A DNA stretch of 64,000 nt, taken from an uncultured Poribacteria bacterium. GTDB taxonomy: Bacteria; Poribacteria; WGA-4E; WGA-3G. The stretch spans positions 4,340,001 through 4,404,000 of the forward strand of contig CATQHZ010000001.1 in the NCBI GenBank assembly GCA_958296135.1. Reading direction: 5' to 3'. Positions 4,655-20,161 of the stretch are shown piece after piece. Each line of letters begins with the position of its first letter. Positions within the stretch are counted from its first letter, which is position 1. The position numbers were made by a program, and so were the translations under genes. The notes below the pieces were generated by a model that was not told the DNA's origin, made no database searches, and saw nothing but the letters and a program-made list of their open reading frames with translations.

Positions 4655-5497
4655 CTACATTTTCTTTCCAATATGGATGGCGACGATGCCGAACGTCTTC
4701 CGATAAAACTGCACATCCGTTAGCCCGCATTTTTCCATCATTTCTTTCAACGCGTCGCAATTCGGGAAGCGCATGACAGAACGAGGGAGATAGCCGTAAG
4801 CATCGTCTTTATTGCGCGAGATGAGATTGCCAAGGAACGGCAAGATGCGCTTGAAATAGAAATAGTAGAGTTGTCGGAACAAGGGGTTCACGGGTTGCGT
4901 AAATTCCAAGATGGCGATTCTACCGCCCGGCACCGCGACGCGCGTCATCTCGCGGATACCCAGTTCCAGATTTCTGGACACCGATTCGGTGATGAAGGAG
5001 GGCAGCTCAGGAAAACCTGCGCTGCGAGGTAGAGACGTAACGGGTTGGGCATCTGAGTCCTGTTGAGGGTTCTGGGCGAATTCTGCGTTTGCGACGTTCC
5101 GAATGCCGAAGCCTACCGAGACAATGTCAAAGGTGTTGTCCAGAAACGGGAGTGTGAAGGTATCCGCTGCAATAAACGGCGCGCTGGTGCCCCGACGCGC
5201 CACCTTTTGATTTCCCACGACTAACATCTCAAGGCAGAAATCTGAACCGATAACGGTGCCGCCCTCATTAACCCCGGTAGGCGCGCTTTGCAAGCGCGCG
5301 AGTTCCTCCGCGTAGGCGAGGGCCAACTCACCCGTGCCGGTGCAGACATCCAGCACCTTGCTTTTCGGCGTGACGCGGCTTGCCTTCACCGTCTCGCGCC
5401 GCCACATCGTATCGCGCCTGAGACTTAGGAGCGAATTGAGGAAGTCATAGTGGCGCGCGATGCGGGCAAAGAGGTTTTTGATTCGGTTTGCGTGCAT
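4655..5497 (-). CDS. ubiE: Demethylmenaquinone/ubiquinone methyltransferase
   Basis: 280 residues, some 30-50 longer than usual MenG/UbiE. The family is recognised from FARIARHYDFLNSLLSL, the SAM motif VLDVCTGTGELAL, FGIRNVAN and the end HIGKKM. It methylates the quinone ring in menaquinone or ubiquinone synthesis. Two segments are extra. One is LARLQSAPTG (around 5274-5302), which is a REP-A palindrome translated in frame. The other is about 40 residues after VANAEF (around 4985-5085), where relatives run straight into the REM-R-V--PGG motif. Both lie where loops can be tolerated and the core motifs are intact, so the enzyme may still work. Confidence 0.88.
   Translation of the reverse strand: MHANRIKNLFARIARHYDFLNSLLSLRRDTMWRRETVKASRVTPKSKVLDVCTGTGELALAYAEELARLQSAPTGVNEGGTVIGSDFCLEMLVVGNQKVARRGTSAPFIAADTFTLPFLDNTFDIVSVGFGIRNVANAEFAQNPQQDSDAQPVTSLPRSAGFPELPSFITESVSRNLELGIREMTRVAVPGGRIAILEFTQPVNPLFRQLYYFYFKRILPFLGNLISRNKDDAYGYLPRSVMRFPNCDALKEMMEKCGLTDVQFYRKTFGIVAIHIGKKM
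5274..5302. repeat. REP-A palindrome inside ubiE/menG
   Basis: GGTAGGCGCGCTTTGCAAGCGCGCG, a near-perfect REP-A copy with its GC arms, in frame inside the methyltransferase gene and translated as LARLQSAPTG on the minus strand. Confidence 0.8.
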
Positions 5498-5532
5498 CGT
5501 CTCTATCCGTTGTGAACCGTGCTTATACCGGG

Positions 5533-5664
5533 TTAATCTTTCTTCCGATGCGGCGGCAGCGGCAGATATTTCCGCCCCTCTTTCCGCCGTTTTTCTCCTT
5601 GCGCTGCCAAATACTCGTAGAGTTCGTCAAGGTCCTTGAACTGCGCGTTGAACTCCCGTTTCAT
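5533..5664 (-). CDS. Small basic hypothetical protein, possibly frameshifted
   Basis: 43 residues, MKREFNAQFKDLDELYEYLA followed by a basic tail ending PHRKKD. It lies 35 bases upstream of ubiE on the same strand. The in-frame ATG has no ribosome site and a stop sits four codons before it. In another frame an AGGAGG-led ATG at about 5719 gives MLSPAQTTLNVLMLPDETG and would run into this ORF if one base were added or lost. So this may be the 3' part of a slightly longer gene carrying a frameshift. No family is recognised. Confidence 0.4.
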   Translation of the reverse strand: MKREFNAQFKDLDELYEYLAAQGEKRRKEGRKYLPLPPHRKKD

Positions 5665-5865
5665 CTGGTAGCATTAATACATTGAGCGTCGTCTGTGCAG
5701 GACTTAACATTGTCTCTTACCTCCTCTTCAGCCACGCATCATACCCGGCATGCGTGAGCACACGATGGATTGTCACCCGCTCACGCTATTTAGGATACCA
5801 CATCAACATTTAATTTCCAAGATAAAATCTACAGGCCGTACGCAAATTCCGAAAACGCCCGTTCA
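5665..5865. other. Intergenic stretch with eroded coding traces
   Basis: On the minus strand, an AGGAGG at about 5727 overlaps the end of a short reading frame ending GYDAWLKRR. Neither this nor the following short frame can be assigned. The rest is A/T-rich and shows nothing else. Confidence 0.3.
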
Positions 5866-5936
5866 GTAGGCGCGCTTTGATGACACTTCAGTACGAAATC
5901 GGACGATTCTGAATTTTCATGAAAGCGCGCCTACAG
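5866..5936. repeat. Split REP-A palindrome with long loop
   Basis: GTAGGCGCGCTTTGATG at the left and GAAAGCGCGCCTAC at the right are complementary, separated by about 40 bases. It sits at the 3' end of pheT, and its right arm overlaps the last codons of that gene. Confidence 0.55.
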
Positions 5937-8384
5937 CCGCAATTCCGCACCCAACTCCCGATTGAGACGCTGAACCACCTTCTCATGGAGCCGGTTAACC
6001 GCTTTGTCTGTCAACGTCTCGGTTGCGGAATGATACGCAATCGTATAGGCAAGGCTCTTCTTGCCCGCCGGCACCGGGTCGCCGACATAGAGGTCGAACA
6101 ACAGCACGGATTCTACCAACTCGCCGCCTGTCGCATAGATGAGGGCTATCGGTTCGTCTGCCGGAATGTCGGCATCCAGCACAATCGCCAAGTCACGTTG
6201 GACTTTCGGATAGATGGAAATCGGTTCAAAGCGTTTGGAGAACGCAGCGGCTTCCGAGAGTACCCCCAGGTCGAATTCAAAAAGGTATGCCTTGTAGGGC
6301 AAATCGTAGTTTTCAAGAACGCTCGGGTGCGCTTCGCCGAAGATACCGAGTCGCGACCGGGAGGGCGAACCTACCAGCACTTGTGCATTGCGGCCGGGAT
6401 GGAAGGTGGGTTCATCGGTTCGCGCAAGCGTGTAATCGACGATGCCGCACACTTCCAGCAGGCCCTCCACGATGCCTTTGATGTCAAAGAAATCAGGAGC
6501 GCGATAGGCATCGCCGTAGACACCGCCGCCAATGTCACCAGCGAGAATGCCTGCCACGCGCGCCGGTTCATCAATGCCACACGCAGCAGTAGGGGGGCTT
6601 GGCACGCGCGCATCCCCCACTAGGAACACCGTGGACACCTCAAATAACGCAATAGTGTTGATTTGGTGATTGTGGTTGTGCCGCGCATTTTCAAGCAGAC
6701 TCGGCAATAGCGTCGTGCGGAGTACGGACATCTCCGGGCTCAGTGGGTTTCGCAACTGCACTGCCTCACGACGCGCGTCTTTTTCACCCAGGCGGAGCCT
6801 GTCAAAGCAACTCGGAGCACAAAAACTATAGTTTACCGCCTCCATCATCCCCGATGCCAGCAGAAAACGCTTGACGCACCGATGAACTTCCAGCTTGACA
6901 TCTGGTTCCGGCATCGGAATATCCCCTTTGGGCAACGTCGTCGGGATGTTATCGTAGCCGTAGACGCGGGCGATTTCTTCAACCAGATCGATCTCGCGGG
7001 TAACATCCGCGCGGAACGTCGGCACGGTAACCTGATAGGTGTCAGCATCACTATGCTCAATGTGAAAACCGAGGCGCGTTAAAATCTCCACCATCTCTGT
7101 CGCTTTAATCTCGGTGCCTAAGACGAAATTGACGCGCGCCGGCCGAAGTTGCATCTGGCATGGCGGCACTTCGCCCGGATAGACATCAACAGCCCCTTCA
7201 CAGAGGGTGCCACCGGCGAGTTCAACGATGAGATGTGCCGCCCGGTCCAGCGCAACGATGACTGCCCCCGGGTCCGTGCCGCGCTCAAATCGGTAGGATG
7301 CATCCGTGTGGATGCCTAACGCCTTTGAGGTGGCGCGGACACTAGCGGGATTGAAATAGGCACTCTCCAGGAGCACATCGCGCGTCTCTTCCGTGATTTC
7401 CGAATCGTAGCCGCCCATGATGCCCGCGAGTGCCACCGGCTCTTCGGCATCGGCAATGACGAGCATGTCGGGAGTGAGTGCCCGTTCAACTTCATCAAGC
7501 GTTGTTATCCGTTCGCCTGCCGCCGCCCGGCGCACAACGATGCGGTTCTCGGCGAGCTTGTGATAATCAAAGGCATGAAGCGGTTGCCCATATTCCATCA
7601 GCACAAAATTCGTCACATCAACGATGTTGTTGATAACGCCTACGCCTACAGATTTCAACCGACGCTGAAGCCATTCGGGAGAGGGGCCGATTTTAACGCC
7701 TTGAATAACGCGCGCAGCATAGCGCGGGCAAAGCGCGGGCGCAGCGATGGACACCGAAGTGGTTTCTCGGATATCAGGCCCGCTAGCGTGCTTAAAAAGC
7801 GCGCCTACGGAGTCTGGCAGCTTCAGCGGATTACCGGTATCGGCGCGGATTTCGCGCGCCACGCCAATAAGACTGAGGCAATCGGCGCGATTCGGCGTAA
7901 TCTCTAACTGCATGACGACATCGTCTAATCCTAACGCCTCGGCAAGCGGAGTGCCGGGGGAAAGGGCTGACGGTAATTCCATGAGGCCCGCGGCATCGTC
8001 TGAGATACCGAGCTCTTTTTCGGAGCAGAGCATTCCGTGAGATTCGGTGCCGCGCAGTTTGGCACGTTTGATTGTCAAACCGCTCGGCAATTCCGTGCCG
8101 ATAGTTGCAACCGGGGCCAGCATGCCTTCCCGCGCGTTCGGTGCCCCGCACACAATCTGGAGCACTGCTGCCTCGCCGACATCTACCCGGCAAACCACCA
8201 ATTTATCAGCATTCGGATGCCGGGTAATCGCGTTCACTTTGCCCACGACTACACCCGCAAGTTCGGCACCGAGGTGCCGCATCGATTCAACTTCAATGCC
8301 GAGCATTGTCAAGCGTTCGGCCAGTTTGCTGGGGGAAAGCGCGAAATCGATATAGGTTTTTAGCCAATTGAAGGTTACGTGCAT
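5931..8384 (-). CDS. pheT: Phenylalanyl-tRNA synthetase beta subunit
   Basis: 817 residues, slightly longer than the usual 795-805. It starts MHVTFNWLKTYIDF, has the EMAP/tRNA-binding domain (about 40-150: VVVGKVNAITRHPNADKLVVC), the B3/B4 region with INNIVDVTNFVLMEYGQPLHAFD, B5, the core and the C-terminal anticodon-binding fold (RDLAIVLDADIPADE). With PheS it charges tRNA-Phe. A REP-A palindrome at 7784-7811 is read in frame as DSVGALFKHASG in the linker before LCPRYAARVI. Relatives vary in this linker, which may explain why it is tolerated. It is co-transcribed with pheS behind the T-box. Confidence 0.95.
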   Translation of the reverse strand: MHVTFNWLKTYIDFALSPSKLAERLTMLGIEVESMRHLGAELAGVVVGKVNAITRHPNADKLVVCRVDVGEAAVLQIVCGAPNAREGMLAPVATIGTELPSGLTIKRAKLRGTESHGMLCSEKELGISDDAAGLMELPSALSPGTPLAEALGLDDVVMQLEITPNRADCLSLIGVAREIRADTGNPLKLPDSVGALFKHASGPDIRETTSVSIAAPALCPRYAARVIQGVKIGPSPEWLQRRLKSVGVGVINNIVDVTNFVLMEYGQPLHAFDYHKLAENRIVVRRAAAGERITTLDEVERALTPDMLVIADAEEPVALAGIMGGYDSEITEETRDVLLESAYFNPASVRATSKALGIHTDASYRFERGTDPGAVIVALDRAAHLIVELAGGTLCEGAVDVYPGEVPPCQMQLRPARVNFVLGTEIKATEMVEILTRLGFHIEHSDADTYQVTVPTFRADVTREIDLVEEIARVYGYDNIPTTLPKGDIPMPEPDVKLEVHRCVKRFLLASGMMEAVNYSFCAPSCFDRLRLGEKDARREAVQLRNPLSPEMSVLRTTLLPSLLENARHNHNHQINTIALFEVSTVFLVGDARVPSPPTAACGIDEPARVAGILAGDIGGGVYGDAYRAPDFFDIKGIVEGLLEVCGIVDYTLARTDEPTFHPGRNAQVLVGSPSRSRLGIFGEAHPSVLENYDLPYKAYLFEFDLGVLSEAAAFSKRFEPISIYPKVQRDLAIVLDADIPADEPIALIYATGGELVESVLLFDLYVGDPVPAGKKSLAYTIAYHSATETLTDKAVNRLHEKVVQRLNRELGAELRL
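7784..7811. repeat. REP-A palindrome inside pheT
   Basis: AGCGTGCTTAAAAAGCGCGCCTACGG, in frame in pheT and translated as VGALFKHAS on the minus strand. Confidence 0.75.
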
Positions 8385-8408
8385 AAATCAGAATCCTCCC
8401 TTTTCCAG

Positions 8409-8441
8409 AGTGCATAACGGACAGATATAGCAATCTGTCCT
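8409..8441. repeat. REP-B-like palindrome
   Basis: GGACAGATATAGCAATCTGTCC between pheS and pheT. It has the REP-B layout with altered arms. Confidence 0.5.
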
Positions 8442-8451
8442 GACAGGTGTC

Positions 8452-9468
8452 CTAAAACTGCCGTAAGAAACGCAGGTCATTCTCATAGAAAGTGCGGATG
8501 TCGGGGATGCGGAATTGGAGGTTCGCAATTCGCTCCACCCCCATGCCGAAAGCAAACCCCGTAACCTGCTCAGGCTCATAGCCGACCGCGTGGAATACCT
8601 CAGGATCGACGGCGCCTGCACCCAGGATTTCAATCCACCCGGTGCCGCCACAACTGCGACACCCCTCACCACCACAGACAGTACACGAAATATCCACTTC
8701 GGCACTCGGTTCTGTGAACGGAAAGAAATGCGGCCGAAAGCGCATCTGCGTATCCGCACCGAACAACTGCCGCGCAAACGAGGTTAGGATACCCTTCAAC
8801 TCGCTAAAGGTTACGTGTGTATCCACTAGCAATCCCTCAACTTGATGGAACATCGGCGTGTGCGAGACATCGTAATCGACGCGGTAAGCCTTGCCCGGCA
8901 CAATAATGCGCACCGGCGGTGGCTGCTGCTCCATTGCGCGAATCTGCACCGGCGACGTGTGAGTGCGCAAGAGATGCCCATCGGTAAGGTAGAAAGTATC
9001 GTGCAAATCGCGCGCAGGATGGTCTGACGGAGTATTCAGCGCGTCGAAATTGTAATAATCCGTCTCCACCTCGGGGCCCGTGGCGATTTGAAACCCCATC
9101 TGTGTGAAAATTGACGTTATCCGCTCCAAGGACTGCATGACAGGATGCGCTTTCCCGTATGCAGGCTTTCTGCCCGGAAGCGTGATGTCCACCGACTCGT
9201 CTGCCAGTTGTTGTAACTGCTGTTGGCGTTGCAGTTCCTGCGCTGTCCGCTCAAACGCCTCGTTCAATTCGGCACGAATCTGGTTTGCCAACTTGCCGAC
9301 AACAGGCCGCTCGGCTTTGGAGAGTTTGCCCATGCCTTTCATCACCGTTGTCAGTTGTCCGTTGCGTCCGAAATATTGGACGCGTAGCGATTCAAGTGCG
9401 TCCAACGTTTTGACCGCGGTGAGCGCGGTGAGTGCAGCGGCGTGGATTTGGTTTAATGCGTCTTGCAT
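8452..9468 (-). CDS. pheS: Phenylalanyl-tRNA synthetase alpha subunit
   Basis: 338 residues, a normal length. Class II motifs are present: DHPARDLHDTFYL, motif 2 around LLRTHTSPVQIRAM, and motif 3 GFAFGMGVERIANLQFRIPD near the C-terminus. A short insert CTVCGGEGCRSCGGTG carries four cysteines in two CxxC pairs, as in some bacterial PheS proteins. The start at 9468 follows GAGG with five bases between; 22 codons further upstream are REP-A sequence. Expression should be controlled by the T-box leader upstream. Confidence 0.95.
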   Translation of the reverse strand: MQDALNQIHAAALTALTAVKTLDALESLRVQYFGRNGQLTTVMKGMGKLSKAERPVVGKLANQIRAELNEAFERTAQELQRQQQLQQLADESVDITLPGRKPAYGKAHPVMQSLERITSIFTQMGFQIATGPEVETDYYNFDALNTPSDHPARDLHDTFYLTDGHLLRTHTSPVQIRAMEQQPPPVRIIVPGKAYRVDYDVSHTPMFHQVEGLLVDTHVTFSELKGILTSFARQLFGADTQMRFRPHFFPFTEPSAEVDISCTVCGGEGCRSCGGTGWIEILGAGAVDPEVFHAVGYEPEQVTGFAFGMGVERIANLQFRIPDIRTFYENDLRFLRQF

Positions 9469-9482
9469 AACAACCTCACATC

Positions 9483-9513
9483 CGGTAGGCGTGCTTTGAA
9501 AGCGCGCCCGCCG
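9483..9513. repeat. REP-A palindrome
   Basis: GGTAGGCGTGCTTTGAAAGCGCGCCCGCCG between the T-box terminator and pheS. Confidence 0.7.
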
Positions 9514-9515
9514 AT

Positions 9516-9571
9516 AAAAAGAAACGCCTGTCACTTTATCTTATCCCACACTGGGGACGAAAGTGACAGGC
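9516..9571 (-). terminator. Intrinsic terminator of the T-box leader
   Basis: On the minus strand GCCTGTCACTTT and AAAGTGACAGGC form a long stem with an interior loop, followed by GTTTCTTTTT. It lies directly after the T-box sequence, as expected for the terminator conformation. Confidence 0.85.
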
Positions 9572-9631
9572 ATCTACTTCCGCGGTACCACCCCGCTTGG
9601 CAAATTCCTTTAAGGGAGCTCATCAGCTAAC

Positions 9632-9662
9632 CTAGCGCGCTTGAAAAGCGCGCCTACCGGTG
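9632..9662. repeat. REP-A palindrome inside the T-box leader
   Basis: CTAGCGCGCTTGAAAAGCGCGCCTACCGG, about 35 bases 5' of the T-box signature on the minus strand. Confidence 0.75.
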
Positions 9663-9929
9663 TTGATGGCGAAATTTGCCCGCTTGATTTCTTGTTCGGT
9701 AACGGTGAACGGACCGGCGCGACCTACTGTCCTTTGCATCCGGGAGGACGCAGTTGGGGTTCAGTTCGGCGGCTCTGGGATGAAATTCGGCTGCTGCTCT
9801 CAAAGCCGCGCTTTCAGCCGGTGGCGCGGCATCTCTACTTGAGATGGGATTGCAAGTTTCACCCTATCTCAGCAGCTTACTGTGTCCCTTCATAGCCTTT
9901 GATTTAATGTTGTAGCACTTACGTAGAAA

Positions 9930-9988
9930 CGAGGGCTGTCAGCGCGCCCTCGTGGCGTGCGCGGTTGAAAACCGCGCCTACCGGTAGT
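9930..9988. repeat. Hairpin and REP-A palindrome after rplT
   Basis: CGAGGG-CTGTCAGCG-CGCCCTCG forms a hairpin (9930-9952), followed by a REP-A copy GCGCGGTTGAAAACCGCGCC (9959-9978). The first may act as the 3' end of the infC-rpmI-rplT message. Confidence 0.55.
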
Positions 9989-10105
9989 GGCGTAATCCCA
10001 AATTAATCTCTATCGTTCAGGCTCGCCCGAGCCCGAACCGTTTGCGATGGCGTACTAGCAAACGACAGCATTTCGGAGAACCAGAAGGTTCTGTCTGTTT
10101 TGGTA

Positions 10106-10453
10106 TTATCCCTTTGCCAGGGAGACCAGCTGTCCAAATCCAGACTCATCGTGCACAGCGATATCGGCGAGAACCTTCCGGTCAAGTTCAATTCCCGCGG
10201 TTTTGAGTCCGTGCATGAATTTGCTGTAGGAGAGTCCGTGGAGTCTTGCAGCGGCGTTAATACGTGCGATCCAGAGTCGTCTGAAATCGCGTTTGCGCGC
10301 ACGGCGGTGCGCGTAGGCGTGATTCCACCCCTTTTCTACCGCCTCAGTAGCAGTGCGCTTGAGGTTGTTCCTGCCGCCGCGGTAACCTTTGGAATGCTTT
10401 AGCATCCGTTTGCGGCGTTTGATTCGGACGTTCCCTGTTTTTACTCGTGGCAT
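10106..10453 (-). CDS. rplT: Ribosomal protein L20
   Basis: 115 residues, normal length. The start [19 protein letters not shown], the [13 protein letters not shown] segment and the [19 protein letters not shown] block are diagnostic. It binds 23S rRNA early in assembly of the 50S subunit. It is the last gene of infC-rpmI-rplT, and pheST follow downstream. In many bacteria L20 represses this operon; no L20 leader site was identified. Confidence 0.97.
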
Positions 10454-10563
10454 TTACGGCTCCTCTCGCAGCCGGCTTTGCGTAGCGGCCGCGGACAATA
10501 GTGTGCCCAGGCGCGCGGCGCGCTGCCGGACAATCGCTCGAATCGGAGGGAAGATTCCGTTCT

Positions 10564-10758
10564 CTACTGATGAATAAGACGCTTTAAGCGTTTTTCGTTG
10601 CTCGGGTCGACGAGGGTGGCTTGGCGCAACCTGCGCTTGCGCTTGGAGGATTTGTTGATGAACAAGTGGCCCGCATAAGCGCGATTGCGGCGGATTTTGC
10701 CTTTCGCCGTAAATTTGAAACGCTTCGCCGCACCTTTATGGGTTTTGATTTTCGGCAT
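10564..10758 (-). CDS. rpmI: Ribosomal protein L35
   Basis: 64 residues, normal length and very basic. MPKIKTHKGAAKRFKFTAKG, then AGHLFINKSSKRKRRLR, matches L35. It lies about 110 bases upstream of rplT in the conserved order. The C-terminus ends KRLKRLIHQ. Confidence 0.97.
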   Translation of the reverse strand: MPKIKTHKGAAKRFKFTAKGKIRRNRAYAGHLFINKSSKRKRRLRQATLVDPSNEKRLKRLIHQ

Positions 10759-10923
10759 TAGAAATCCTTCTCATCATTCGGGGCAAAACCTCTGCCCCCT
10801 GCTGGTTTCTGTGACGTTCGTTCGCTGCTGTCGTATGGGCTGCCATGCAAATCCAAGACAGCAGACTGATGTTCTCGTTCTGAGCGTTTTCGGGTTCTGT
10901 CGCAAGTTGCAACGGGTTGTCAA

Positions 10924-11058
10924 TCAAGTGTCCGCCTGCATCGATACCGTGTTGGCGGCGACAACCTCTTGCACTGCCTCGCGGCCCAGAACACCGAACG
11001 CCGTATGCGCTAGCACGAGCAACACAAGCAGAACTGCCGCTCCGATTTCAGGAGACAC
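10924..11058 (-). CDS. Possible small single-pass membrane peptide
   Basis: A GTG-started frame of 44 codons: VSPEIGAAVLLVLLVLAHTA then FGVLGREAVQEVVAANT. It has one clear hydrophobic segment. It lies in the unusually long infC-rpmI gap. AGGA abuts the GTG with no spacing, and the region around the start is itself palindromic, so it may not be translated. Confidence 0.25.
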   Translation of the reverse strand: MSPEIGAAVLLVLLVLAHTAFGVLGREAVQEVVAANTVSMQADT

Positions 11059-11068
11059 TCCTGCAGGG

Positions 11069-11096
11069 TAAGGCGGGGGCGCGAAGGCCCCCGCGG
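11069..11096. repeat. GC hairpin after infC
   Basis: GCGGGGGC-GCGAAG-GCCCCCGC is a strong stem 20-45 bases downstream of the infC stop. There is no T-run, so it may attenuate or stabilise rather than terminate. Confidence 0.5.
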
Positions 11097-11112
11097 TCAG
11101 CGTACCCGTAAA

Positions 11113-11661
11113 TCATGCCGAAGACTTCGGCATGAGGAGCATCGACATCATGCGCGTCTCCATACGCGGCGGTTGTTCCACCTCGGCGACTTCCGCCAGA
11201 TCGTCCCGGAGCCGCGCGAGCATGTTTCTACCCAAATCGGTATGGAGCATTTCGCGGCCCTTAAACCGAACGGTCGCGCGGACCTTCCAGCCGTGCGCAA
11301 GGAATTCCGCAACGTGCCGTTTCTTGAACTGGTAGTCGTGCTCCGCAGTATCCGGCCGGAACTGCATCTCTTTCAACACAACCTTAGTCTGCTTCTTCCG
11401 GGCCTCGCGCGCGCGCTTATTACGCTCGTACTGATACTTCCCGTAGTCCATGATTTTGCAAACGGGCGGCTTCGCATTCGGTGAGACTTCCACCAAATCC
11501 AAACCGACATCTTCAGCACGCCGCATGGCATCGCGCGTCGGCGTTACGCCTACCTGATTGTTGTCCTGGTCGATCAACAGCACCTCTCGGGCCCGAATCT
11601 GATAATTCGAGCGGCTCTGTCGTTCTCTGGTTCTCTGATTGCGTCTACCTCTATAGTGTAT
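11113..11661 (-). CDS. infC: Translation initiation factor IF-3
   Basis: Recognised from YQIRAREVLLIDQD, VSPNAKPPVCKIMDYGKYQY, KQTKVVLKEMQFRPD and the C-terminal KGREMLHTDLG. It keeps ribosomal subunits apart and checks the start codon. The first standard start (GTG at 11583) falls inside the conserved REVLLID strand and would remove the N-terminal domain's beginning. The frame is open back to a stop at 11667, with no ATG, GTG or TTG. An ATA codon at 11659-11661 has a GGGGGT box eight bases upstream, giving 182 residues. Rare AUU/AUA-type starts are typical of infC and permit autoregulation. The exact start is inferred. Confidence 0.9.
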   Translation of the reverse strand: MHYRGRRNQRTRERQSRSNYQIRAREVLLIDQDNNQVGVTPTRDAMRRAEDVGLDLVEVSPNAKPPVCKIMDYGKYQYERNKRAREARKKQTKVVLKEMQFRPDTAEHDYQFKKRHVAEFLAHGWKVRATVRFKGREMLHTDLGRNMLARLRDDLAEVAEVEQPPRMETRMMSMLLMPKSSA

Positions 11662-11772
11662 TTTTCACACCCCCAAGTTAAAGCACGCTTCTGCTTACAG
11701 CAACGTGTAAGCACCGTGGGACACCCGCCGGGATGTTGCCGGCTCGGTTGTGCCCAAAATCGTAAGTACCTA

Positions 11773-11801
11773 ATTATACCACATTCGTAACGAAAATGCA
11801 A
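11773..11801 (-). promoter_or_regulatory. Promoter of the infC operon
   Basis: On the minus strand: -35 TTGCAT (11796-11801), 17 bases, consensus -10 TATAAT (11773-11778). It leaves a leader of about 105 bases before the proposed infC start. Confidence 0.8.
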
Positions 11802-11802
11802 A

Positions 11803-12159
11803 TTAAAAAAAGCCGATTGTCCACAACGTGCGTAAAACGATAATGCCACCGGCCAGTCCGCCGAAGACGCACATGAAGCCGATGCTGACGATGAGCGCGA
11901 GCCGGACGATGCGTTCGCCGAGCTGCGGTTGTTCGATTGCCCAGGCACGCGCGAGGACAAAGGTTAAGGCGACACTAATAAGGTTCAGCAGGCACGCGCC
12001 TAAAACGGCCAAGAGTAGCCCTGTAAAATCCACCATCTGCATGGTTTCTGGCAGCGAGCCGTATTGTGAATAACGCTGGATAACGCCGATGAGCACGCCG
12101 CCCAAGATGATGATAAAACCGATGAAAACGGTGATGGCTTTTTTGAACGCAGTTCCCAT
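11803..12159 (-). CDS. Small membrane protein of unknown function
   Basis: 118 residues with about three membrane segments: AITVFIGFIIILGGVLIGVI, FTGLLLAVLGACLLNLISVA and LALIVSIGFMCVFGGLAGGI. No family is recognised. The start at 12159 begins the first helix; the 27 codons upstream overlap the promoter at 12200-12228, so they are not translated. Its stop lies just two bases from the infC promoter -35 box. Confidence 0.6.
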   Translation of the reverse strand: MGTAFKKAITVFIGFIIILGGVLIGVIQRYSQYGSLPETMQMVDFTGLLLAVLGACLLNLISVALTFVLARAWAIEQPQLGERIVRLALIVSIGFMCVFGGLAGGIIVLRTLWTIGFF

Positions 12160-12915: not shown

Positions 12916-13044
12916 TACAAATGAACCATCGGAATTTCAGGAGGCGCGCCCTCCAGGTCGCGACGCATTCAGTATCGGGACCGGGAGAACCGGCCTACCG
13001 AAAACTTTACGCGCTTTCGCTCAATAGAGCAAAGGAGATTTCAA

Positions 13045-14052
13045 ATGTTCACCCGAAATAGAACTGCCACAACAGGCACGCGCATCCTCGTATGCGCCAG
13101 TCTGTTGCTGATAGCGTTTTGCGTTAACTTCGCCGATGCCGCTTCGGTGAAGGCAGGCTACCAATATCAGGAAATCAAGGCGCTTGCTAAAAATCTCGCC
13201 TACGACAGCGAGCCCGCGGAACTTGAGAAGCTGATCGAGAAATCGCGAGCCTTTATTAAGGCGCACCCAAAATACAAACGGGTGGACGAAGTCTACTACC
13301 GCCTTGGCAACGCCTTAATTCGCCTTGAACAGACAGAGGAAGGCACCGCTGTCTTTGAAGAGCTCATTCGTGACTACCGTTCGGCGCGCTACGTTGAACG
13401 CAGTTTGCTGGAATTGGGGTTGGCTTACGACAAACTCGGAAAGCACGACAAAGCGGATGAGGTTTATGAAAAGTTGATGAACCATCCCAAGTATGGCTCC
13501 CGCGTGCAAGCCCAAATCGCAGCGAAAATCCTTGCGTTGGACACAAGCGAACGGAACGGGGAAGAGCCGAATCCTTACGGCCCGCCGGCGAGTGCGTTCG
13601 TCGGGAAACCAGCCAAGGATTTTGAGGTAATCGAGCTGAAAGGCGAGGCACTCTCGTTAGCAGACTATCGCGGGAAAGTCGTGCTACTCGATTTCTGGGC
13701 GACGTGGTGCGGGCCCTGTCTCAACGAAATGCCGCACGTCAAAAAGACGTACGCCACATACCGGGACCAGGATTTCCAGATCATCGGTATCAGTCTAGAC
13801 CGGGGCAAACCGCCGCTGGAGGCGTATCTGGCACAAGAGGAGATTGCCTGGCCGCAATATTTGGATGCAGGTGGCAAAATCGCCACCTTGTATAATGTCC
13901 GAGCGATTCCGTCTACCTTTCTGATTGATGGCGAGGGAATTGTCCGCAAGACGAACCTCCGCGGCGGCGCGCTTGAGAAAGCAGTCGCGGCATTAGTGAA
14001 GGAAAACACGGCGAAGCAGGCAGAGAAAAAAGCGGAAGCCGCTTCGCAATAA
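13045..14052 (+). CDS. Exported TPR-thioredoxin (TlpA/ResA-like) protein
   Basis: 335 residues. The N-terminal RILVCASLLLIAFCVNFADA is a signal peptide or anchor. Residues about 40-180 are TPR-like helices (VDEVYYRLGNALIRLEQTEE; LLELGLAYDKLGKHDKADEV). The C-terminal half is a thioredoxin fold of the TlpA type: GKPAKDFEVIELKGEALSL, VLLDFWATWCGPCLNEMP with the active Cys222-x-x-Cys225, and the cis-Pro motif AIPSTFLID. It likely reduces disulfides outside the cytoplasm, and the TPR part may select a partner. AAGGAG precedes the start. Confidence 0.85.
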   Translation: MFTRNRTATTGTRILVCASLLLIAFCVNFADAASVKAGYQYQEIKALAKNLAYDSEPAELEKLIEKSRAFIKAHPKYKRVDEVYYRLGNALIRLEQTEEGTAVFEELIRDYRSARYVERSLLELGLAYDKLGKHDKADEVYEKLMNHPKYGSRVQAQIAAKILALDTSERNGEEPNPYGPPASAFVGKPAKDFEVIELKGEALSLADYRGKVVLLDFWATWCGPCLNEMPHVKKTYATYRDQDFQIIGISLDRGKPPLEAYLAQEEIAWPQYLDAGGKIATLYNVRAIPSTFLIDGEGIVRKTNLRGGALEKAVAALVKENTAKQAEKKAEAASQ

Positions 14053-14079
14053 CGTGCCCTTTCACCCCGTTGAACCGGT

Positions 14080-14150
14080 AGGGCGGGGGCTCGCGAGGGA
14101 ACCCTCGGCGATTCGCGCTCGCCGGGTTTTCCCTCGCGCTACGGGGTGAG
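14080..14150. repeat. REP-C type palindromic repeat
   Basis: GGTAGGGCGGGGGCTCGCGAGGGAACCCTCGGCG followed by GATTCGCGCTCGCCGGG and GCGAGGG arms. It belongs to the same family as 15402-15650, 37864-37915, 44484-44535 and 61590-61645. Confidence 0.6.
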
Positions 14151-14272
14151 TGACATTTTTTCTCCCATAGGGCCGGGGGGTATTTCCTTCGTTTTTTGGC
14201 CCTCGCCGTATCGTTTAACCTATAACCGATTGCCGCCAAGGCTTTCAAGATTATCGCATATAAGGAGGAACT

Positions 14273-15355
14273 ATGGCACATGTCACCTTAAAGGATGTCA
14301 CTAAAATTTACGATGGCGATGTCCTCGCCGTTGAAAAAGCAGATTTTCAGATTCCTGATGAATGCTTCACCGTGCTTGTCGGCCCATCGGGATGCGGCAA
14401 ATCGACGATTTTGCGGATGATCGCCGGGCTGGAAGAGATAACCCAAGGTGACATTTATATTGATGGAGAACGCATCAACGATATGCCGCCGAAGGATAGG
14501 GATATCGCCATGGTCTTCCAGAATTACGCGCTCTACCCGCACATGTCCGTCTATAAAAATATGGCGTTCGGGTTGAAACTGCGAAAGTATCCGAAAGCGG
14601 AAATCGAACAGCGAGTTCGAGAGGCAGCGGAAATTCTGAGCATCTCGCACCTGTTGGCGCGGAAGCCGAAGCATCTCTCCGGCGGCGAACGGCAGCGCGT
14701 CGCTGTCGGCCGCGCAATAGTCCGACATCCAAAGGTGTTTCTATTCGATGAACCGTTGAGTAACCTCGATGCAAAACTGCGCGTGCAAATGCGAATGGAA
14801 ATCAGCCGACTGCACGACAGGCTCAACGCCACCATCGTCTATGTCACGCACGACCAGGTTGAAGCGATGACGATGGGGGACCAGATTGTCGTCCTCAACG
14901 AAGGGAAAATCCAGCAGATTGCCGACCCGGGCACGCTGTATCATAACCCAGCGAATCAGTTTGTGGGCGGCTTCATCGGCACGCCGCCGATGAATTTTAT
15001 TCAGACCGGCATTCGCCGCGAAACACTCCAATTTGAAGAATTTGAAGTGCTGTTGACTGCCCGTCTCCAGGAAAAGTTGCAAGATTTTTCGAGAGATGCG
15101 GTGACACTCGGCATCCGTCCGGAGGACATCCAGGTCGGCGATGCATCGAAGAATACCGTGACAACGCGGGTGGAGTTAGTGGAGCCGCTCGGCAACCATG
15201 TGCTTTTGTATCTCCGAGCGGGGGAGAGTCATTTCATCGTGCAATCCGACGGTGTCACTATTCCGAGGCACGACGCACTGCTGAATGTCCATTTTAACAT
15301 GGACAAAGCGCATCTGTTTCATCCGGAGACAGGTGAATCGTTAACCGCCGTTTAG
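14273..15355 (+). CDS. ABC transporter ATP-binding protein, sugar (MalK/UgpC) type
   Basis: 360 residues. Walker A GPSGCGKST (about 37-45), signature LSGGERQRVAVGRAIV (about 135), Walker B VFLFDEPLSNLDAKLR and the switch VTHDQVEAMT are intact. The last 120 residues form the TOBE/regulatory domain (LGIRPEDIQVGD). This subfamily energises uptake of maltose, glycerol-3-phosphate or other sugars, and one ATPase can serve several permeases. No permease or binding protein gene is adjacent. AAGGAGG precedes the start. A terminator follows directly, so it is monocistronic. Confidence 0.9.
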   Translation: MAHVTLKDVTKIYDGDVLAVEKADFQIPDECFTVLVGPSGCGKSTILRMIAGLEEITQGDIYIDGERINDMPPKDRDIAMVFQNYALYPHMSVYKNMAFGLKLRKYPKAEIEQRVREAAEILSISHLLARKPKHLSGGERQRVAVGRAIVRHPKVFLFDEPLSNLDAKLRVQMRMEISRLHDRLNATIVYVTHDQVEAMTMGDQIVVLNEGKIQQIADPGTLYHNPANQFVGGFIGTPPMNFIQTGIRRETLQFEEFEVLLTARLQEKLQDFSRDAVTLGIRPEDIQVGDASKNTVTTRVELVEPLGNHVLLYLRAGESHFIVQSDGVTIPRHDALLNVHFNMDKAHLFHPETGESLTAV

Positions 15356-15364
15356 CCACCGGGG

Positions 15365-15393
15365 CGCCCTTTCTTCCCGTAGGGCGTTTTTTT
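15365..15393 (+). terminator. Intrinsic terminator after the ABC ATPase
   Basis: CGCCCT-TTCTTCCCGT-AGGGCG followed by seven T residues. Confidence 0.85.
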
Positions 15394-15401
15394 CGTCCGT
15401 A

Positions 15402-15650
15402 GTGCTGGGGCCCGGCGAGCGCGAATCGCCGAGGGTTTGCCTCGCGATCGTTCACGCGACAAGAAAGGCCCCTTTTACCGTAGCGCGAAGACCTGTCCCT
15501 CGCGCTCTCCCGATCGACAAGAAAGGCCCCTTTACCGTAGCGCGAGGGCCTGTCCCTCGCGATCGTTCACGCGACAAGAAAGGCCCCTTTTACCGTAGCG
15601 CGAGGGACAGGCGAGCGCGAATCGCCGAGGGTTTCCTCCGCCGTGCCGCG
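15402..15650. repeat. Cluster of REP-C palindromes in tandem
   Basis: Three near-identical units of about 60 bases, each with GTAGCGCGAGGGCCTGTCCC or a close variant and a linker GATCGTTCACGCGACAAGAA, bounded by GGCGAGCGCGAATCGCCGAG elements. No gene lies in this gap. Confidence 0.8.
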
Positions 15651-15653
15651 CTC

Positions 15654-16610
15654 TCACAATTCCTGAAGCTGCTGCCACGTTTCCTCGTCTATCGGGATGC
15701 CTTCTTTTTCTCGCTTGCGTTGCTCCTGAAACCCGCGTTCTCCCGGCACCCGAATGTCTGCGCACTTTTCCGATTTAAGATACGCGACGAACCGTGCTAT
15801 CTCCTCGCTGAAGCCGGGAAATCCGCGAAAATTGGCGATGTTGAGCACCATGACAAACAAACCGTTCCCCACGCGTGCGTCTTCGCCGCGGCTGCACCCT
15901 GCCCCCGTCAATGCGCCCGCGAGAATGTCAACAATCACGCTGAGCCCGAAGCCTTTGTAACCACCGAACGGCAAGAGAACCTCGCTGTCCGCATTCACGC
16001 GCCATTCAGGCGGAAGTGCCTCTCCACGATACTGTTTGAGACGCATCTTCCCCGAGGCCACAACGCTGGTAGCCATATCTAACACAATCGGTTCTTGATT
16101 TTTTATTGGCACAGCGCAGGCGAGGGGGTTAGTAGAGAGTCTACCTTCCGTGCCGCCGTACGGTGCAACGCAAGTACCGCCACCGTGGTCATTCGCCATA
16201 AGCAGGCCGAGCATCTCGGCATCTGCGGCGAGGCAGGCGTATCCACCTAACCTGCCGCTCTCGTTGCATCGCGAAACTGCGACGGTGCTGATGTCGGTGT
16301 GGCGTGCCTTCTGAATTGCGATTTCAACGGCGCGCGTCGCAATGACAGGACCGAAACCCCAATGCCCGTCTAGCACGGCGATTGATGCGGATTCTTTCAC
16401 CGTGTCAAGCGGAGCACCAGGCTGAATAAGTCCGGCTTCCAGTTCCCGCACATATTTCGGCAGATGGATGACTCCGTGTGAATCGTGTCCGACACGATTT
16501 GCGTCCACCATAGAGCGGGTGACGATTGTGGCTTCCGCTGCCGGCACATCCCATTTTTGGAAGACATTGAGACAGAGTTGCGTCAGTTTTTTTGCGGTAA
16601 GGTTTGGCAT
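15654..16610 (-). CDS. Malate/L-lactate (Ldh2) family dehydrogenase
   Basis: 318 residues, somewhat shorter than the usual 330-360. Family marks are ANRVGHDSHGV with the catalytic His, LDGHWGFGPV, the Rossmann-independent NAD-binding region MLGLLMANDHGGG, STNPLACAVPIKNQEPIVLD and GGYKGFGLSVIVDILAGAL. These enzymes oxidise 2-hydroxyacids with NAD(P). Between the VASGKMRLKQYRGEALPPEW segment and GGYKGF some residues found in typical members are missing, so substrate range may differ. It is flanked on both sides by repeat arrays. Confidence 0.85.
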   Translation of the reverse strand: MPNLTAKKLTQLCLNVFQKWDVPAAEATIVTRSMVDANRVGHDSHGVIHLPKYVRELEAGLIQPGAPLDTVKESASIAVLDGHWGFGPVIATRAVEIAIQKARHTDISTVAVSRCNESGRLGGYACLAADAEMLGLLMANDHGGGTCVAPYGGTEGRLSTNPLACAVPIKNQEPIVLDMATSVVASGKMRLKQYRGEALPPEWRVNADSEVLLPFGGYKGFGLSVIVDILAGALTGAGCSRGEDARVGNGLFVMVLNIANFRGFPGFSEEIARFVAYLKSEKCADIRVPGERGFQEQRKREKEGIPIDEETWQQLQEL

Positions 16611-16682
16611 TGTGTTGCTCCTAAATGTGAGATGCTAATATTTTATGTGGGGCGGGATTGGTTGTCAAGTGCAAAGACTACC

Positions 16683-16950
16683 CCTTTCACCGTACGGCCC
16701 CTTTTCACCGTAGCGCGAGGGCCGTTACGCCGAAACGTTGTCATCTCTGCAGCCTCGCTGCAGAGATGTCCACTGTCCCTCGCGAGCGTTCACGCGACAA
16801 GAAAGGCCCCTTTTACCGTAGCGCGAGGGCCTGTCCCTCGCGAAGCCCAGACCCACGAAAAACAGCCCCGCAACCCCGGACACCATCTTCTCCGCAGATC
16901 GGTGCATGGCGCAGCACAGGACCGCGCCCTACGGACGAAGGGGCCTTTCA
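16683..16950. repeat. Mixed REP-C units and an inverted CATCTCTGCAG element
   Basis: Contains CGTAGCGCGAGGGC copies and CATCTCTGCAG-CCTCG-CTGCAGAGATG (16741-16768). The latter recurs at 47709-47736, also followed by TCCACTGTCCCTCGC. No ORF here is credible. Confidence 0.7.
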
Positions 16951-17432
16951 ACCGCAGCGCGGCGGCCTGTCAGCCGCGAGCGTTATCGTTTCTCCGATGC
17001 ATGGCGAGGGACAGGCCCTCGCCCTACGGACGAAGGGGCCTTTCAACCGTAGCGCGGCGACCTGTCAGCCGCGAGCGTTCGCGCAAGGCACGGCGCAGCA
17101 CAGGACCGCGCCCTACGGACGAAGGGGCCTCTTAACCGCAGCGCGGCGGCCTGTCAGCCGCGAGCGTTATCGTTTCTCCGATGCACGGCGCGGCACAGGA
17201 CCGCGCCCTACGGACGAAGGGGCCTTTTCACCGTAGCGCGGCGGCCTGTCAGCCGCGAGCGTTATCGTTTCTCCGATGCATGGCGCAGCACAGGACCGCG
17301 CCCTACGGATGAAGGGGCCTTTTCACCGTAGCGCGGCGGCCTGTCAGCCGCGAGCGTTCGCGCAAGGCATGGCGCAGCACAGGACCGCGCCCTACGGCAG
17401 CCACCAGCCCTGTCCCTCGCGAGCGTTCGCGC
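16951..17432. repeat. Tandem array of about 95-bp hairpin units
   Basis: Five copies of TAGCGCGGCGGCCTGTCAGC (or one-base variants) start at 16954, 17049, 17138, 17233 and 17328. Each is followed by a partner hairpin and CCTACGGACGAAGGGGCC. Each unit holds GCGGC-GGCCTGTCA-GCCGC. The array ends just before the sulfatase promoter. Confidence 0.8.
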
Positions 17433-17443
17433 ACGGAAAAAGA

Positions 17444-17472
17444 TTGACATTCCGCCGAAATTCAGGTATACT
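17444..17472 (+). promoter_or_regulatory. Promoter of the sulfatase gene
   Basis: -35 TTGACA (17444-17449), 17 bases, -10 TATACT (17467-17472). Confidence 0.8.
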
Positions 17473-17499
17473 ATCATAAATCTTTAACAGGAATGGCTT

Positions 17500-19107
17500 A
17501 TGAACTCACCACATCGCCCGAATATTCTTTGGATTTCATTAGAGGATACAACCCCACGCTTCGGTTGTTATGGGGATGCAGTCGCACGCACGCCGAATAT
17601 CGACACACTTGCCAGCGGCGGATGCCGGTTCCCGAATGCGTTCTCCACCGCCGGAGTCTGCGCGCCGAGCCGCTCGGCGATCATCACCGGGATGTACCAG
17701 ACCTCCATCGGCACGCATCACATGCGCACGACGCACACGAACCAGAACACGCCCGACATGCCGACTCCGTATGCCGCCGTGCCGCCGCCTTATGTCAAGA
17801 CGTTCACGGAATATCTACGCGGCGCAGGCTATTATTGCACGAACAACAGCAAAACCGATTATCAGTTCACGCCGCCAAGCACGGCGTGGGACGACTGCAG
17901 CAACACGGGACACTGGCGGAATCGGGAGGCGGGACAACCGTTCTTTTCTGTCTTCAACCCTACCGTCACGCACGAAAGTGGGATGTGGGAGCGCGAAAAT
18001 GGCCGGCCCTTAACGACAAATCCTGATGACGTGCAATTACCGCCCTACCTGCCGAATACACCGAAATCGCGCGAGGCATTGGCCCGCCACTACGATAACC
18101 TCGCCACTGCCGATGCACGCGTCGGGGAACTCTTAACTCAGTTGGAAGAAGACGGACTCGCCGACAATACCATCGTCTTCCTCTGGAGTGACCACGGTGA
18201 AGGGCTCCCGCGCGGAAAGCGTTGGCCCTATGATGCAGGCATTCGGATTCCGCTGATTGTGCGCTGGCCCGGTGAAATGTCGCCTGACAGCGTCAGTGAA
18301 CAACTCGTGAGTCTCATCGATCTGGGGCCGACAGTGTTATCGTTGTGTGGCGTGGAAGCACCGGCGCATCTACAAGGACAACCCTTCCTCGGCCCACAAG
18401 CGGTGGAACGGAACTATATCTTCGCCACCCGCGACCGTTACGATGAGTCTTACGACAGGGTGCGCGCCGTGCGCGATAAACGCTATAAATACATCAGGAA
18501 TTATTACCCCGAAAAGCCCTATCTGCTCTGGATCCCGTATCGCAACCGGCACCCAGTGATGCAGGAAATGTGGCGGCTCTACGCCGAAGGCACATTGGAC
18601 GGAGACCCGGCGGTGATGTTCCAGTATCCCCGGCCCGCTGAGGAACTTTACAACGTTGAGAACGACCGGTATGAGCTCAACAACTTAGCATCGGAGCCCG
18701 GGCATCGCGATGTACTGGAACGGATGCGCGGCGCGCTAGCACAGTGGCAAGCCGATTTCGGCGACATGGGGGACATCCCCGAAGAACAGATGGTCGCGAG
18801 GTGGTATCCCGATGGAAAACAACCGCAAACTGCCGCGCCAATTTTCATTCCGATTAACGCAGCGAACCCCGGCATGGAGGTGGCAGCGTCGGGTGGGCAA
18901 TGGGCGGCACCGCTGCTATTGCAACTTCACTGCGCCACGCAGGGCGCGTCTATTGCGTGGACGATGGAGCCGGGTGAAGATGCGCGCTGGCTGTTGTATA
19001 CGGAGCCGTTGCGGATGCCGAGAGGCGAGACCACGGTGCGCGCCAAGGCGGTCCGCATCGGTTATCAGGAGAGTGATGAGCGAGTGATGGCGGTGGAGGT
19101 TGCGTAG
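17500..19107 (+). CDS. Sulfatase (type I, formylglycine-dependent)
   Basis: 535 residues. RPNILWISLEDTTPRFGCYG gives the metal-binding aspartates. Cys54 in VCAPSRSAIITG fits the C-x-P-S-R rule for conversion to formylglycine. DHGEGLPRGKRWPYDAG resembles the N-sulfoglucosamine sulfohydrolase branch, and LYNVENDRYELNNLA is the usual C-terminal signature. The last 80 residues (LHCATQGASIAWTMEPGED and following) look like a chitobiase/beta-hexosaminidase C-terminal (Fn3-like) domain. There is no signal peptide at the chosen start. AGGA lies eight bases upstream; an ATG at 17493 is in another frame. No maturase gene is in the window. Confidence 0.92.
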   Translation: MNSPHRPNILWISLEDTTPRFGCYGDAVARTPNIDTLASGGCRFPNAFSTAGVCAPSRSAIITGMYQTSIGTHHMRTTHTNQNTPDMPTPYAAVPPPYVKTFTEYLRGAGYYCTNNSKTDYQFTPPSTAWDDCSNTGHWRNREAGQPFFSVFNPTVTHESGMWERENGRPLTTNPDDVQLPPYLPNTPKSREALARHYDNLATADARVGELLTQLEEDGLADNTIVFLWSDHGEGLPRGKRWPYDAGIRIPLIVRWPGEMSPDSVSEQLVSLIDLGPTVLSLCGVEAPAHLQGQPFLGPQAVERNYIFATRDRYDESYDRVRAVRDKRYKYIRNYYPEKPYLLWIPYRNRHPVMQEMWRLYAEGTLDGDPAVMFQYPRPAEELYNVENDRYELNNLASEPGHRDVLERMRGALAQWQADFGDMGDIPEEQMVARWYPDGKQPQTAAPIFIPINAANPGMEVAASGGQWAAPLLLQLHCATQGASIAWTMEPGEDARWLLYTEPLRMPRGETTVRAKAVRIGYQESDERVMAVEVA

Positions 19108-19200
19108 CGCGAGGCCCTGTCCCTCGCGTCCCCTCTTTTGTGAGTATCTCTATCTTCGCACGAAGCAGCCCGCGGGGTTACAAACCTCGCCTGCCGATAA
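19104..19200. repeat. REP-C and REP-A copies at the break of a truncated gene
   Basis: TAGCGCGAGGCCCTGTCCCT (19104-19123) followed by CGCGGGGTTACAAACCTCGC (19172-19191). The sulfatase stop is inside the first. Confidence 0.6.
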
Positions 19201-19202
19201 AA

Positions 19203-20161
19203 AATGGGGTTGGCTCAGTTTCGCGCTCATCGGCATCGGGATTTTGACTGCCATCGCGCAACTCAAGCCGCCGCCGAATACCGGATTCGCCATCGATTGG
19301 AAATTTGACTACGAAACAGAGCACTTCTTCAAAGTGCTGAAGCTCATCTCGCGCGCATATCTGCCTATCCCGAAGCCAACGCGCCACTTTTGGAATTCGC
19401 AGCAACTTGAGGCATACCCGCTCTTCCAAACCCTCCAGATGCCGCTCTGTTTTCTCCTCATTCTCTTCGGCGTCGGGTTGACATGTAAACGCCCTACCGC
19501 CTTGCTCATCTATCTCACCGCAACACTCGGACTGCTCGCGTTTTTCTATGTCAAGTATTACGGCAGCATCCGTCACCACGGATTCCTATTCCTGACATTT
19601 CTGACGGTTGCGTGGATTTATCGGGAGTGTCCGGAGATAGGGACAGATGCACAGTTGAAAACCGCGCCTACCGACAGCGAGGAAACGCGTCCGGCACGCG
19701 CGTTCAGCATCATCCTCACCCTCATCCTCGGCTGCCATTTTATGGGTGGTGTCATCGCCGTTAGCATGGATACCCGACATATTTTCTCTTGCGGCAAACA
19801 GACAGCTGAATATATCAAGGCACAAGGGATGCAGGAGATGCCGATGGTAGGCGACACAGATTTCGCCGCTAGCACCATCGTCGGGTATTTAGAGAAAGCG
19901 GTTATTTACTATCCGCGCGGAAGGCGGTTCGGTTCATTTATCCGTTGGGACAGCGCGCGCACTACGGATGTTCCCGACGCGGCTGTCATTGAAGCGGCAA
20001 AAGTGTTAAGCACGCAGACTTCACAACCGGTGCTGATTATCCTGAACCGCGCCGTGAGCGCGCAGCTGCAGGAACGGTATCGTCTCATCAACGTGGCACA
20101 TTTTACCGGTTCTACCATCAGCGACGAAGAATTCTCCCTTTATCAAATGCCCGCGCACTAA
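19203..20161 (+). pseudogene. 5'-truncated multi-pass membrane protein
   Basis: The frame is open from the repeat at 19104 and reads WGWLSFALIGIGILTAIAQ, several further membrane helices (PLCFLLILFGVGLTC; LLIYLTATLGLLAFFYVKYY; FSIILTLILGCHFMGGVIAV), then a soluble tail ending QMPAH. It resembles the C-terminal half of a glycosyltransferase-39-like or similar polytopic protein. There is no start codon with a ribosome site: the frame enters from repeat sequence and the first internal ATG is far downstream. The N-terminal half is therefore missing, apparently broken at the repeats. A REP-A copy (19649-19677) is in frame as AQLKTAPTDS. Confidence 0.55.
19649..19677. repeat. REP-A palindrome inside the membrane protein ORF
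   Basis: GCACAGTTGAAAACCGCGCC then TACCGACAG. It matches the intergenic copy at 9959 at about 26 of 30 positions and is translated QLKTAPTD. Confidence 0.75.

Follow-up and report, generated by a model that had tools for sequence, protein, structure and literature searches.

Can a short palindromic repeat enter protein-coding genes as a mobile element and leave its translated peptide behind in core enzymes? The question is raised by a 64,000-nt stretch of DNA from an uncultured Candidatus Poribacteria species (assembly GCA_958296135.1, contig CATQHZ010000001.1, positions 4,340,001 to 4,404,000; hereafter the window), in which a GC-rich palindrome, here termed REP-A, recurs between genes and inside open reading frames (ORFs), menG/ubiE and pheT among them. 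A sequence-only reading of the window had listed six copies between genes and three inside coding frames, with a weaker case in a batD-like gene, and had proposed a mobile palindrome that adds short peptides to essential enzymes. We find, with a probability that we put at roughly 0.78, that REP-A is a GTAG-tagged repetitive extragenic palindrome (REP) family whose coding copies are tolerated, with a REP-associated tyrosine transposase (RAYT) as the probable mover and the inserted peptides as likely passengers.

The window is part of a 5.19-Mb genome assembled in 4 contigs. All PheT relatives at named loci (n = 45) are Poribacteria, the closest being isolate AGPOR5 at 84–85% identity. A same-genus genome, G001, whose assembly is 86% complete, served as the sister in the comparisons below.

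A dispersed family of GTAG-tagged hairpins

The REP-A unit is a 23-nt hairpin, GTAGGCGCGSTTTNNAASCGCGC, in which GTAG stays unpaired and the remainder folds into a stem of 8 bp closed by a loop of 3 nt. The menG copy is intact and folds in the same way; the pheT copy, with one pair broken, has only a weak fold (z -1.5), which 16 of 200 shuffles equal. The core unit is not the 31-nt full palindrome of the sequence-only reading, and CTAC follows the stem in 15 of 65 GTAG-led matches (both strands counted). In 43 of these 65 matches YCS precedes the GTAG. One position of the stem varies as a pair, with C-G in 29 matches against G-C in 28, and this coupled change divides REP-A into two subfamilies.

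The main scan, with the 23-mer at up to 4 mismatches over 464 kb (the window plus 400 kb of neighbouring sequence from the same genome), located 90 places, against 1 match in three Markov shuffles combined and 5 in the reversed sequence. Genome-wide, exact GTAGGCGCG half-sites number 353 + 388, versus 95 + 116 for the backward-read pattern, and the two-armed form TAGGCGCGN4-14CGCGCCTA occurs at 97 places versus 0 for the reversed pattern. That the palindrome is truly dispersed was also borne out with the 20-mer of the sequence-only reading, which at up to 3 mismatches gave 12 matches at 9 separate places of the window (three of these, full palindromes, match on both strands), compared with 0 in 100 dinucleotide shuffles. 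This 20-mer recovered the six supposedly intergenic copies, the menG copy and the copy at 19.65 kb but neither the pheT nor the batD case; the pheT copy, in which one arm is more degenerate, was found with the 23-mer, and copies at 5866/5926, 6588–6611, 9635–9657, 19169 and 23165 had been overlooked. No Rfam family matched the palindrome at the gathering threshold in the window. The copies in the window, together with the related repeats in the batD-like gene, are as follows.

4613–4635, minus strand: REP-A copy touching the stop of ORF 3543–4613
5270–5299, plus strand: REP-A copy in frame in menG/ubiE, with the GTAG unit at 5277–5299
5866–5934, no strand: two facing REP-A arms about 69 nt apart (5866/5926) at the pheT 3' end, the right arm's GTAG forming the TAG stop
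6588–6611, plus strand: degenerate REP-A (4 mismatches) within the pheT frame, giving ARVPSPPT (aa 592–599)
7782–7808, minus strand: REP-A within the pheT frame, whose sense reading gives VGALFKHAS (aa 193–201)
9485–9507, plus strand: REP-A at or upstream of the pheS start
9635–9657, minus strand: REP-A within a 60-nt loop expansion of the pheS T-box leader
9959–9981, minus strand: intergenic REP-A upstream of the T-box match
19169–19195, minus strand: degenerate REP-A near the called start of a membrane protein gene; it may precede the true start
19646–19675, minus strand: REP-A in frame in the membrane protein gene, read DAQLKTAPTD
23165–23191, no strand: full REP-A palindrome that overlaps the ORF 23188–25038 at its end
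33283–33309, no strand: intergenic REP-A full palindrome
34764–34790, no strand: full REP-A palindrome that matches the 27-mer without mismatch and whose GTAG forms the TAG stop of ORF 33403–34767
37147–37171, no strand: intergenic REP-A palindrome with a shortened loop
46157–46192, plus strand: GTAGGAG-family repeat PVGEPSRSRKFS in frame in the batD-like gene
46673–46690, minus strand: REP-A-like half-site in the batD-like gene (ERDAPT), with no insert relative to the sister

The three copies in menG, pheT and the membrane protein gene are in frame, as originally described. The copies listed as lying between genes were placed correctly in part: the one at 34764 overlaps the stop of its ORF, that near 4612 touches an ORF end and that at 9483 sits at or upstream of the pheS start, while the rest are indeed intergenic. 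REP-A itself supplies the TAG stop codon at 5931–5933 (pheT) and at 34765–34767. The T-box leader predicted upstream of pheS (9550–9902, minus strand; E 2.7e-14, with 67 bits falling short of the gathering score, 93) places the copy at 9635–9657 inside a putative riboregulator.

The 90 places comprise 50 intergenic sites, 9 at gene ends and 31 in genes called by a simple codon-usage caller (340 genes, 83% of the 464 kb). Since uniform landing would put about 75 of the 90 places in genes, copies that landed in genes seem mostly to have disappeared, and this depletion suggests that the surviving coding copies passed through selection. A similar scan of 348 kb of G001 gave 148 places, 108 of them intergenic, 34 coding and 6 at gene ends. 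Coding copies favour one reading on each strand: xARLQSAPTG (the APT frame) in 11 of 16 antisense copies, and VGALxKRAY (the VGAL frame) in 6 of 7 sense copies. No sense copy reads the TAG of GTAG, an absence with no evidential value because the definition of an ORF excludes stops.

REP-A has three features by which GTAG-tagged REPs are recognised: a short GC-rich hairpin with GTAG left unpaired at one end, copies that are dispersed in tens to hundreds and mainly intergenic, and a RAYT gene in the same genome (L121, described below). These results show REP-A to be a family of GTAG-tagged REP elements that land both between and inside genes.

Exact empty sites in relatives of core enzymes

The clearest evidence for insertion comes from MenG, where the copy is read antisense as ARLQSAPTGV (aa 67–76) and forms a clean insert of 30 nt, or 10 aa. 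The comparison drew 28 full-length rows and 1 partial row from 35 other genomes with a match. As the idea of a mobile palindrome had predicted for menG homologues, exactly these 10 residues are missing from 28 of the 28 full-length rows, with conserved flanks on either side, and the insert was found in the window genome only. Another REP copy, GTAGGTGCGGTTTCTAACCGCACTACA or close to it (VGAVSNRTT), occurs elsewhere in the MenG of 5 genus-g2 rows.

MenG also carries additions of other kinds. The window protein has a second, unrelated 39-residue insert (about aa 137–175), missing from the other 28 full-length rows, and the menG genes of L165 and L177 (genomes G010 and G014) and of further rows hold inserts of about 35 aa in GGAAGG...CCTTCC-rich DNA, a different type of repeat at one MenG site.

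Three further core enzymes show the same pattern. In LpxK (29 of 31 relatives compared), the 10 residues RPGGALFKRA are missing from 29 of 29, two of which have a different insert nearby; a solved LpxK is gapped by 11 residues at this site. In LeuS (27 of 28 relatives compared), a 12-residue insert is missing from all 27, and solved LeuS structures have gaps at its site; two of the 27 hold an unrelated insert a few residues away. For LplA (likewise 29 of 31), the REP-A insert is missing from 29 of 29 relatives; the protein is 14 residues longer than most of them and 9 longer than that of the sister, which retains 5 extra residues. No MenG, LpxK or LeuS was found in G001 (in one of these searches its best match reached only 1.3e-16), so that the nearest relative is unusable for these three genes. 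A direct comparison with the sister was available for a 1213-aa protein (85% identity), in which one REP copy is common to both genomes and one 10-aa copy is unique to the window genome. For UppP, a solved homologue is gapped at the REP-A site, as judged from the PDB alignment only. Near the LeuS insert, the leuS genes of L368 and L370 (G012 and G006) have a PFPVTGGDP-type insert, doubled in L370, which marks a common tolerant site.

The empty sites in relatives of MenG, LpxK, LeuS and LplA show, at the level of aligned sequences, that REP-A can add about 10 residues in frame. Core enzymes of this type are essential in most bacteria. The proposal that peptides are added to core enzymes stands for MenG, LpxK and LeuS; in pheT and the membrane protein, where the element replaced part of a variable linker with a net gain of 4 aa, the copies are not clean insertions. 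The accompanying statement that all copies sit in loops or linkers fares less evenly: the AlphaFold model of MenG (mean predicted local distance difference test score, pLDDT, 65.6) places the insert at a helix end and in the following loop, and the poor PheT model (predicted template modelling score, pTM, 0.32) is uninformative. Most likely, the added peptides are tolerated passengers at linkers and loop ends that confer no new function.

The candidate mover and competing explanations

The window genome contains two Y1 transposase genes, L121 and L122, both within GTAG-repeat arrays. L121 scores 127.6 bits on the NCBIfam RAYT model NF047646 (cut-off 80) and has REP-A-type hybrid ends, GTAGGCGCGC, on both sides; L122 reaches 57.3 bits, below the cut-off. 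Dense GTAGCGCGAGGGCC- and GTAGGGCGCGG-type arrays surround L122; exact copies of these motifs number 47 and 34 across the 464 kb, and they represent further REP families. Among 30 Y1 loci of relatives that were inspected, two hold close L121 homologues. In G040, from another family of the order, a RAYT 55% identical to L121 lies between inverted copies of GTAGGCGGGGCATCTTGCCCCGCC (L320:1386-2013), and two further copies of the same repeat within its own frame, read AGQDAPPTG and TGQDAPPTG, account for a 27-residue gain missing from two homologues. In G030, a RAYT 67% identical to L121 has inverted GTAGGAGCGAGC repeats on both sides. The REP families flanking these two RAYTs are others than REP-A, and most of the remaining 28 loci had neither L121 similarity by tblastn nor clean REP flanks. 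According to the part of PMC8266576 consulted here, RAYTs cut single-stranded REPs at a CT near the hairpin, and GTAG is needed in E. coli.

From the form of the element, the RAYT genes of the genome and the REP-flanked RAYTs of relatives, we infer that REP-A is moved by an L121-type RAYT. Under this model the RAYT, an HUH/Y1 transposase, would probably move copies as single-stranded hairpins, which would land between and inside genes. Coding copies would persist when their net length and reading keep the protein functional, and selection would have retained the harmless ones, leaving survivors that lengthen the protein by about 10 aa net, for the most part with the xARLQSAPTG or VGALxKRAY reading.

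Of 84 poribacterial genomes, 49, from 5 of 21 genera, contain the full pattern TAGGYGCGSTTNNNAASCGCRCCTA; the control count was 0 in all 84, and the pattern was not found in the 12 genomes outside the order. Copies number 225 in G001, 63 in the window genome and at most 13 in every other genome. In G001, REP copies also lie in tandem and in frame within single genes:

L147:4681-5319 and L157:1-1338, G001: in-frame tandem REP arrays in the YbeY and M28 peptidase genes

Four REP-A copies recur in frame every 42 nt in the YbeY gene (Pfam PF02130), and the M28 peptidase gene (PF04389) has two in-frame arrays with periods of 36 and 39 nt; these arrays have the appearance of hairpins growing into peptide repeats.

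Several observations weigh against a RAYT-moved REP-A as the source of these peptides. First, not every coding copy is a clean insertion. At pheT 193–201, REP-A replaced part of a variable linker for a net gain of 4 aa. The 592–599 copy lies in a linker where relatives hold various other inserts, and a solved PheT has gaps of 4 and 9 residues at these two sites. The membrane protein copy at 19.65 kb (a variable linker, ambiguous) and the LpxK N-terminal copy (in a segment variable between species) likewise amount to net gains of 4 aa, and as aligned none of the three proteins shows a clean insertion at these +4-aa sites. Second, 13 of the 31 coding places fall within the first 7% of the called gene (and 2 of the 31 overlap each other); most of these 13 may lie upstream of the true start, although the LpxK N-terminal copy, which is start-proximal, does align with homologues. 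Third, across 52 genes and 19,386 aligned aa, the window genome and its sister differ by 17 gaps of at least 4 aa, only 3 of which coincide with a GTAG repeat, all on the window genome's side (the 1213-aa protein, pheT and batD); by this comparison REPs are one indel source among several. Fourth, the main repeat around L121 is another family, GTAGGAGAGACC, with hybrid GGCGCGCCTAC ends and no clean REP-A units. Finally, no Y1 transposase was found in the 86%-complete assembly of G001 despite its 225 full-pattern copies, the most of any genome, and G001 is the sole exception among the 10 genomes with full-pattern REP-A: in 23 chosen genomes, counts that pool all Y1 types without separating cognate ones put Y1 genes in 12 of 13 genomes lacking the pattern versus 9 of 10 having it.

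The weaker case in the batD-like gene, proposed as an insert near 46655–46690, is a bare half-site with which the sister aligns with a one-residue difference, but the GTAGGAG-family repeat in the same gene at 46157–46192 corresponds to 6 additional residues relative to the sister.

In-frame inserts also occur near pheT residues 127, 279, 404, 445, 450 and 593 in different species, and only some are clearly palindromic. Identical 10-residue inserts are seen near residue 127 in 5 of 52 rows (L069, L077 in shortened form, L080, L083 and L112) and near residue 279 in 3 of 52 (L050, L077 and L098). A palindrome test over 37 in-frame inserts near pheT (12 clusters, 298 rows) gave scores of at least 8 in 10 of 37 versus 15 of 740 random segments, a figure inflated by low-complexity GGAAGG-type MenG inserts and including 2 inserts from an ORF antisense to pheT; among the 18 pheT inserts, 2 reached this score. 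The test lends weak support to a palindromic origin.

A more far-reaching version of the RAYT model holds that RAYT-driven REPs are a continuing peptide-insertion mutagen, which would hit the same tolerant sites repeatedly (PheT near residue 593, the LeuS editing-domain loop), enter a transposase's own gene and grow in tandem (YbeY). We regard this as tentative, with the balance tilted against it; if true, a 'selfish' hairpin would be a standing source of new protein parts.

Dispersal without any transposase, through recombination or slippage during replication among repeats already present, is an unlikely account. It would fit the copy number of G001, where no Y1 was detected, the failure of Y1 to track REP-A in the 23 chosen genomes and the YbeY and M28 arrays, which resemble local amplification, but single new copies in unrelated genes call for a dispersal step, and RAYT genes lie among GTAG repeats here and, for the same RAYT type, between inverted REPs in two relatives. 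Still less probable is that REP-A is retained for a role in RNA, as a terminator or a stability hairpin, with the coding copies as strays. The 50 of 90 places that are intergenic, the 9 that overlap gene ends and the two REP-supplied TAG stops accord with such a role, which leaves the new intragenic copies unexplained, and the window copies inspected show no T-run after the hairpin, unlike intrinsic terminators. An RNA role may nevertheless exist in addition to tolerated insertion by a RAYT.

Two remaining explanations are very improbable. REP-A shares with the rickettsial palindromic elements (RPEs) its behaviour, with in-frame inserts in core enzymes including PheT and at exposed segments (PMC3767692, in the text available), but CGTC is the tag at the end of R. 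conorii RPE repeats and, in the portion of PMC3733652 consulted, CGTC repeats apparently have no dedicated transposase, whereas REP-A ends in GTAG and spans 23 nt rather than 100–150 bp; membership is rejected on tag and length, not on a sequence alignment. That the coding palindromes are ordinary self-complementary protein segments is true of the batD half-site and may hold for the linkers of the membrane protein and of pheT, where only 4 aa are gained, and is contradicted elsewhere by near-identical 23-mers in unrelated genes with shuffles near zero and by the exact absences in MenG, LpxK, LeuS and LplA relatives.

Relation to known elements

REP-A resembles the GTAG REPs with RAYTs described in the available parts of Nunvar 2010 (PMC2817692) and Di Nocera 2013 (PMC3733652) in its unpaired GTAG, GC-rich stem and dispersed copies, as well as in its RAYT genes, the TAG stops that it supplies to neighbours and some intragenic copies. 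The latter paper, in the text seen, reports GTAG REPs inside genes of several bacteria, singly, clustered or as dimers, together with REP-supplied TAG stops, an association with RAYTs and a suggested linker location of inserts; clustering of REPs within genes is as such not new. Unlike the GTAG REPs treated there, REP-A is a stem family from a phylum named 0 times in that text. Exact empty sites in relatives, a RAYT with two own-frame copies of its flanking REP, and the in-frame tandem arrays in the sister's YbeY and M28 peptidase go beyond known GTAG REPs.

The Rickettsia comparison drawn at the outset holds for behaviour and for the unrelatedness of the host, but not for the class of element, which here is a GTAG REP with a RAYT in the genome. 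Rickettsia RPEs, of 100–150 bp, lie in open frames with PheT among their hosts (PMC3767692, excerpt), and those of the RPE-4/6 type in R. conorii are CGTC-tagged (PMC3733652, same portion). REP-A is like them in its in-frame inserts in core enzymes including PheT, a likeness seen at the DNA level only, and unlike them in its 23-nt, GTAG-tagged unit and net inserts of about 30 nt. REPINs (PMC3116915, as far as its text was available) are likewise REP-based short mobile units, but REP-A places are mostly single hairpins, only the 5866/5926 pair in the window resembling two facing REPs. The coding palindromes of nematomorph mitochondria (PMC6649704, available part) are also inverted repeats in protein-coding genes, but they are perfect and up to 284 bp long, whereas REP-A is a small dispersed GTAG family.

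In the literature searched, no title or opening of an abstract concerned palindromic or REP elements of Poribacteria, and the word Poribacteria is absent from the text seen of the RepRanger paper (PMC12306157). The kind of element is known, intragenic GTAG REPs having been described in 2013; the REP-A family and its poribacterial host are new.

The exact empty sites mean that a REP family can add about 10 residues to core enzymes whose frames stay open, so that in-frame palindrome insertion as seen in Rickettsia now has a counterpart in a 5-Mb genome from a different phylum. The G040 RAYT, whose reading frame includes copies of the REP on its flanks, is a natural test case for RAYT–REP pairing, and MenG, LpxK, LeuS and LplA provide natural with/without pairs for measuring what an added peptide costs.

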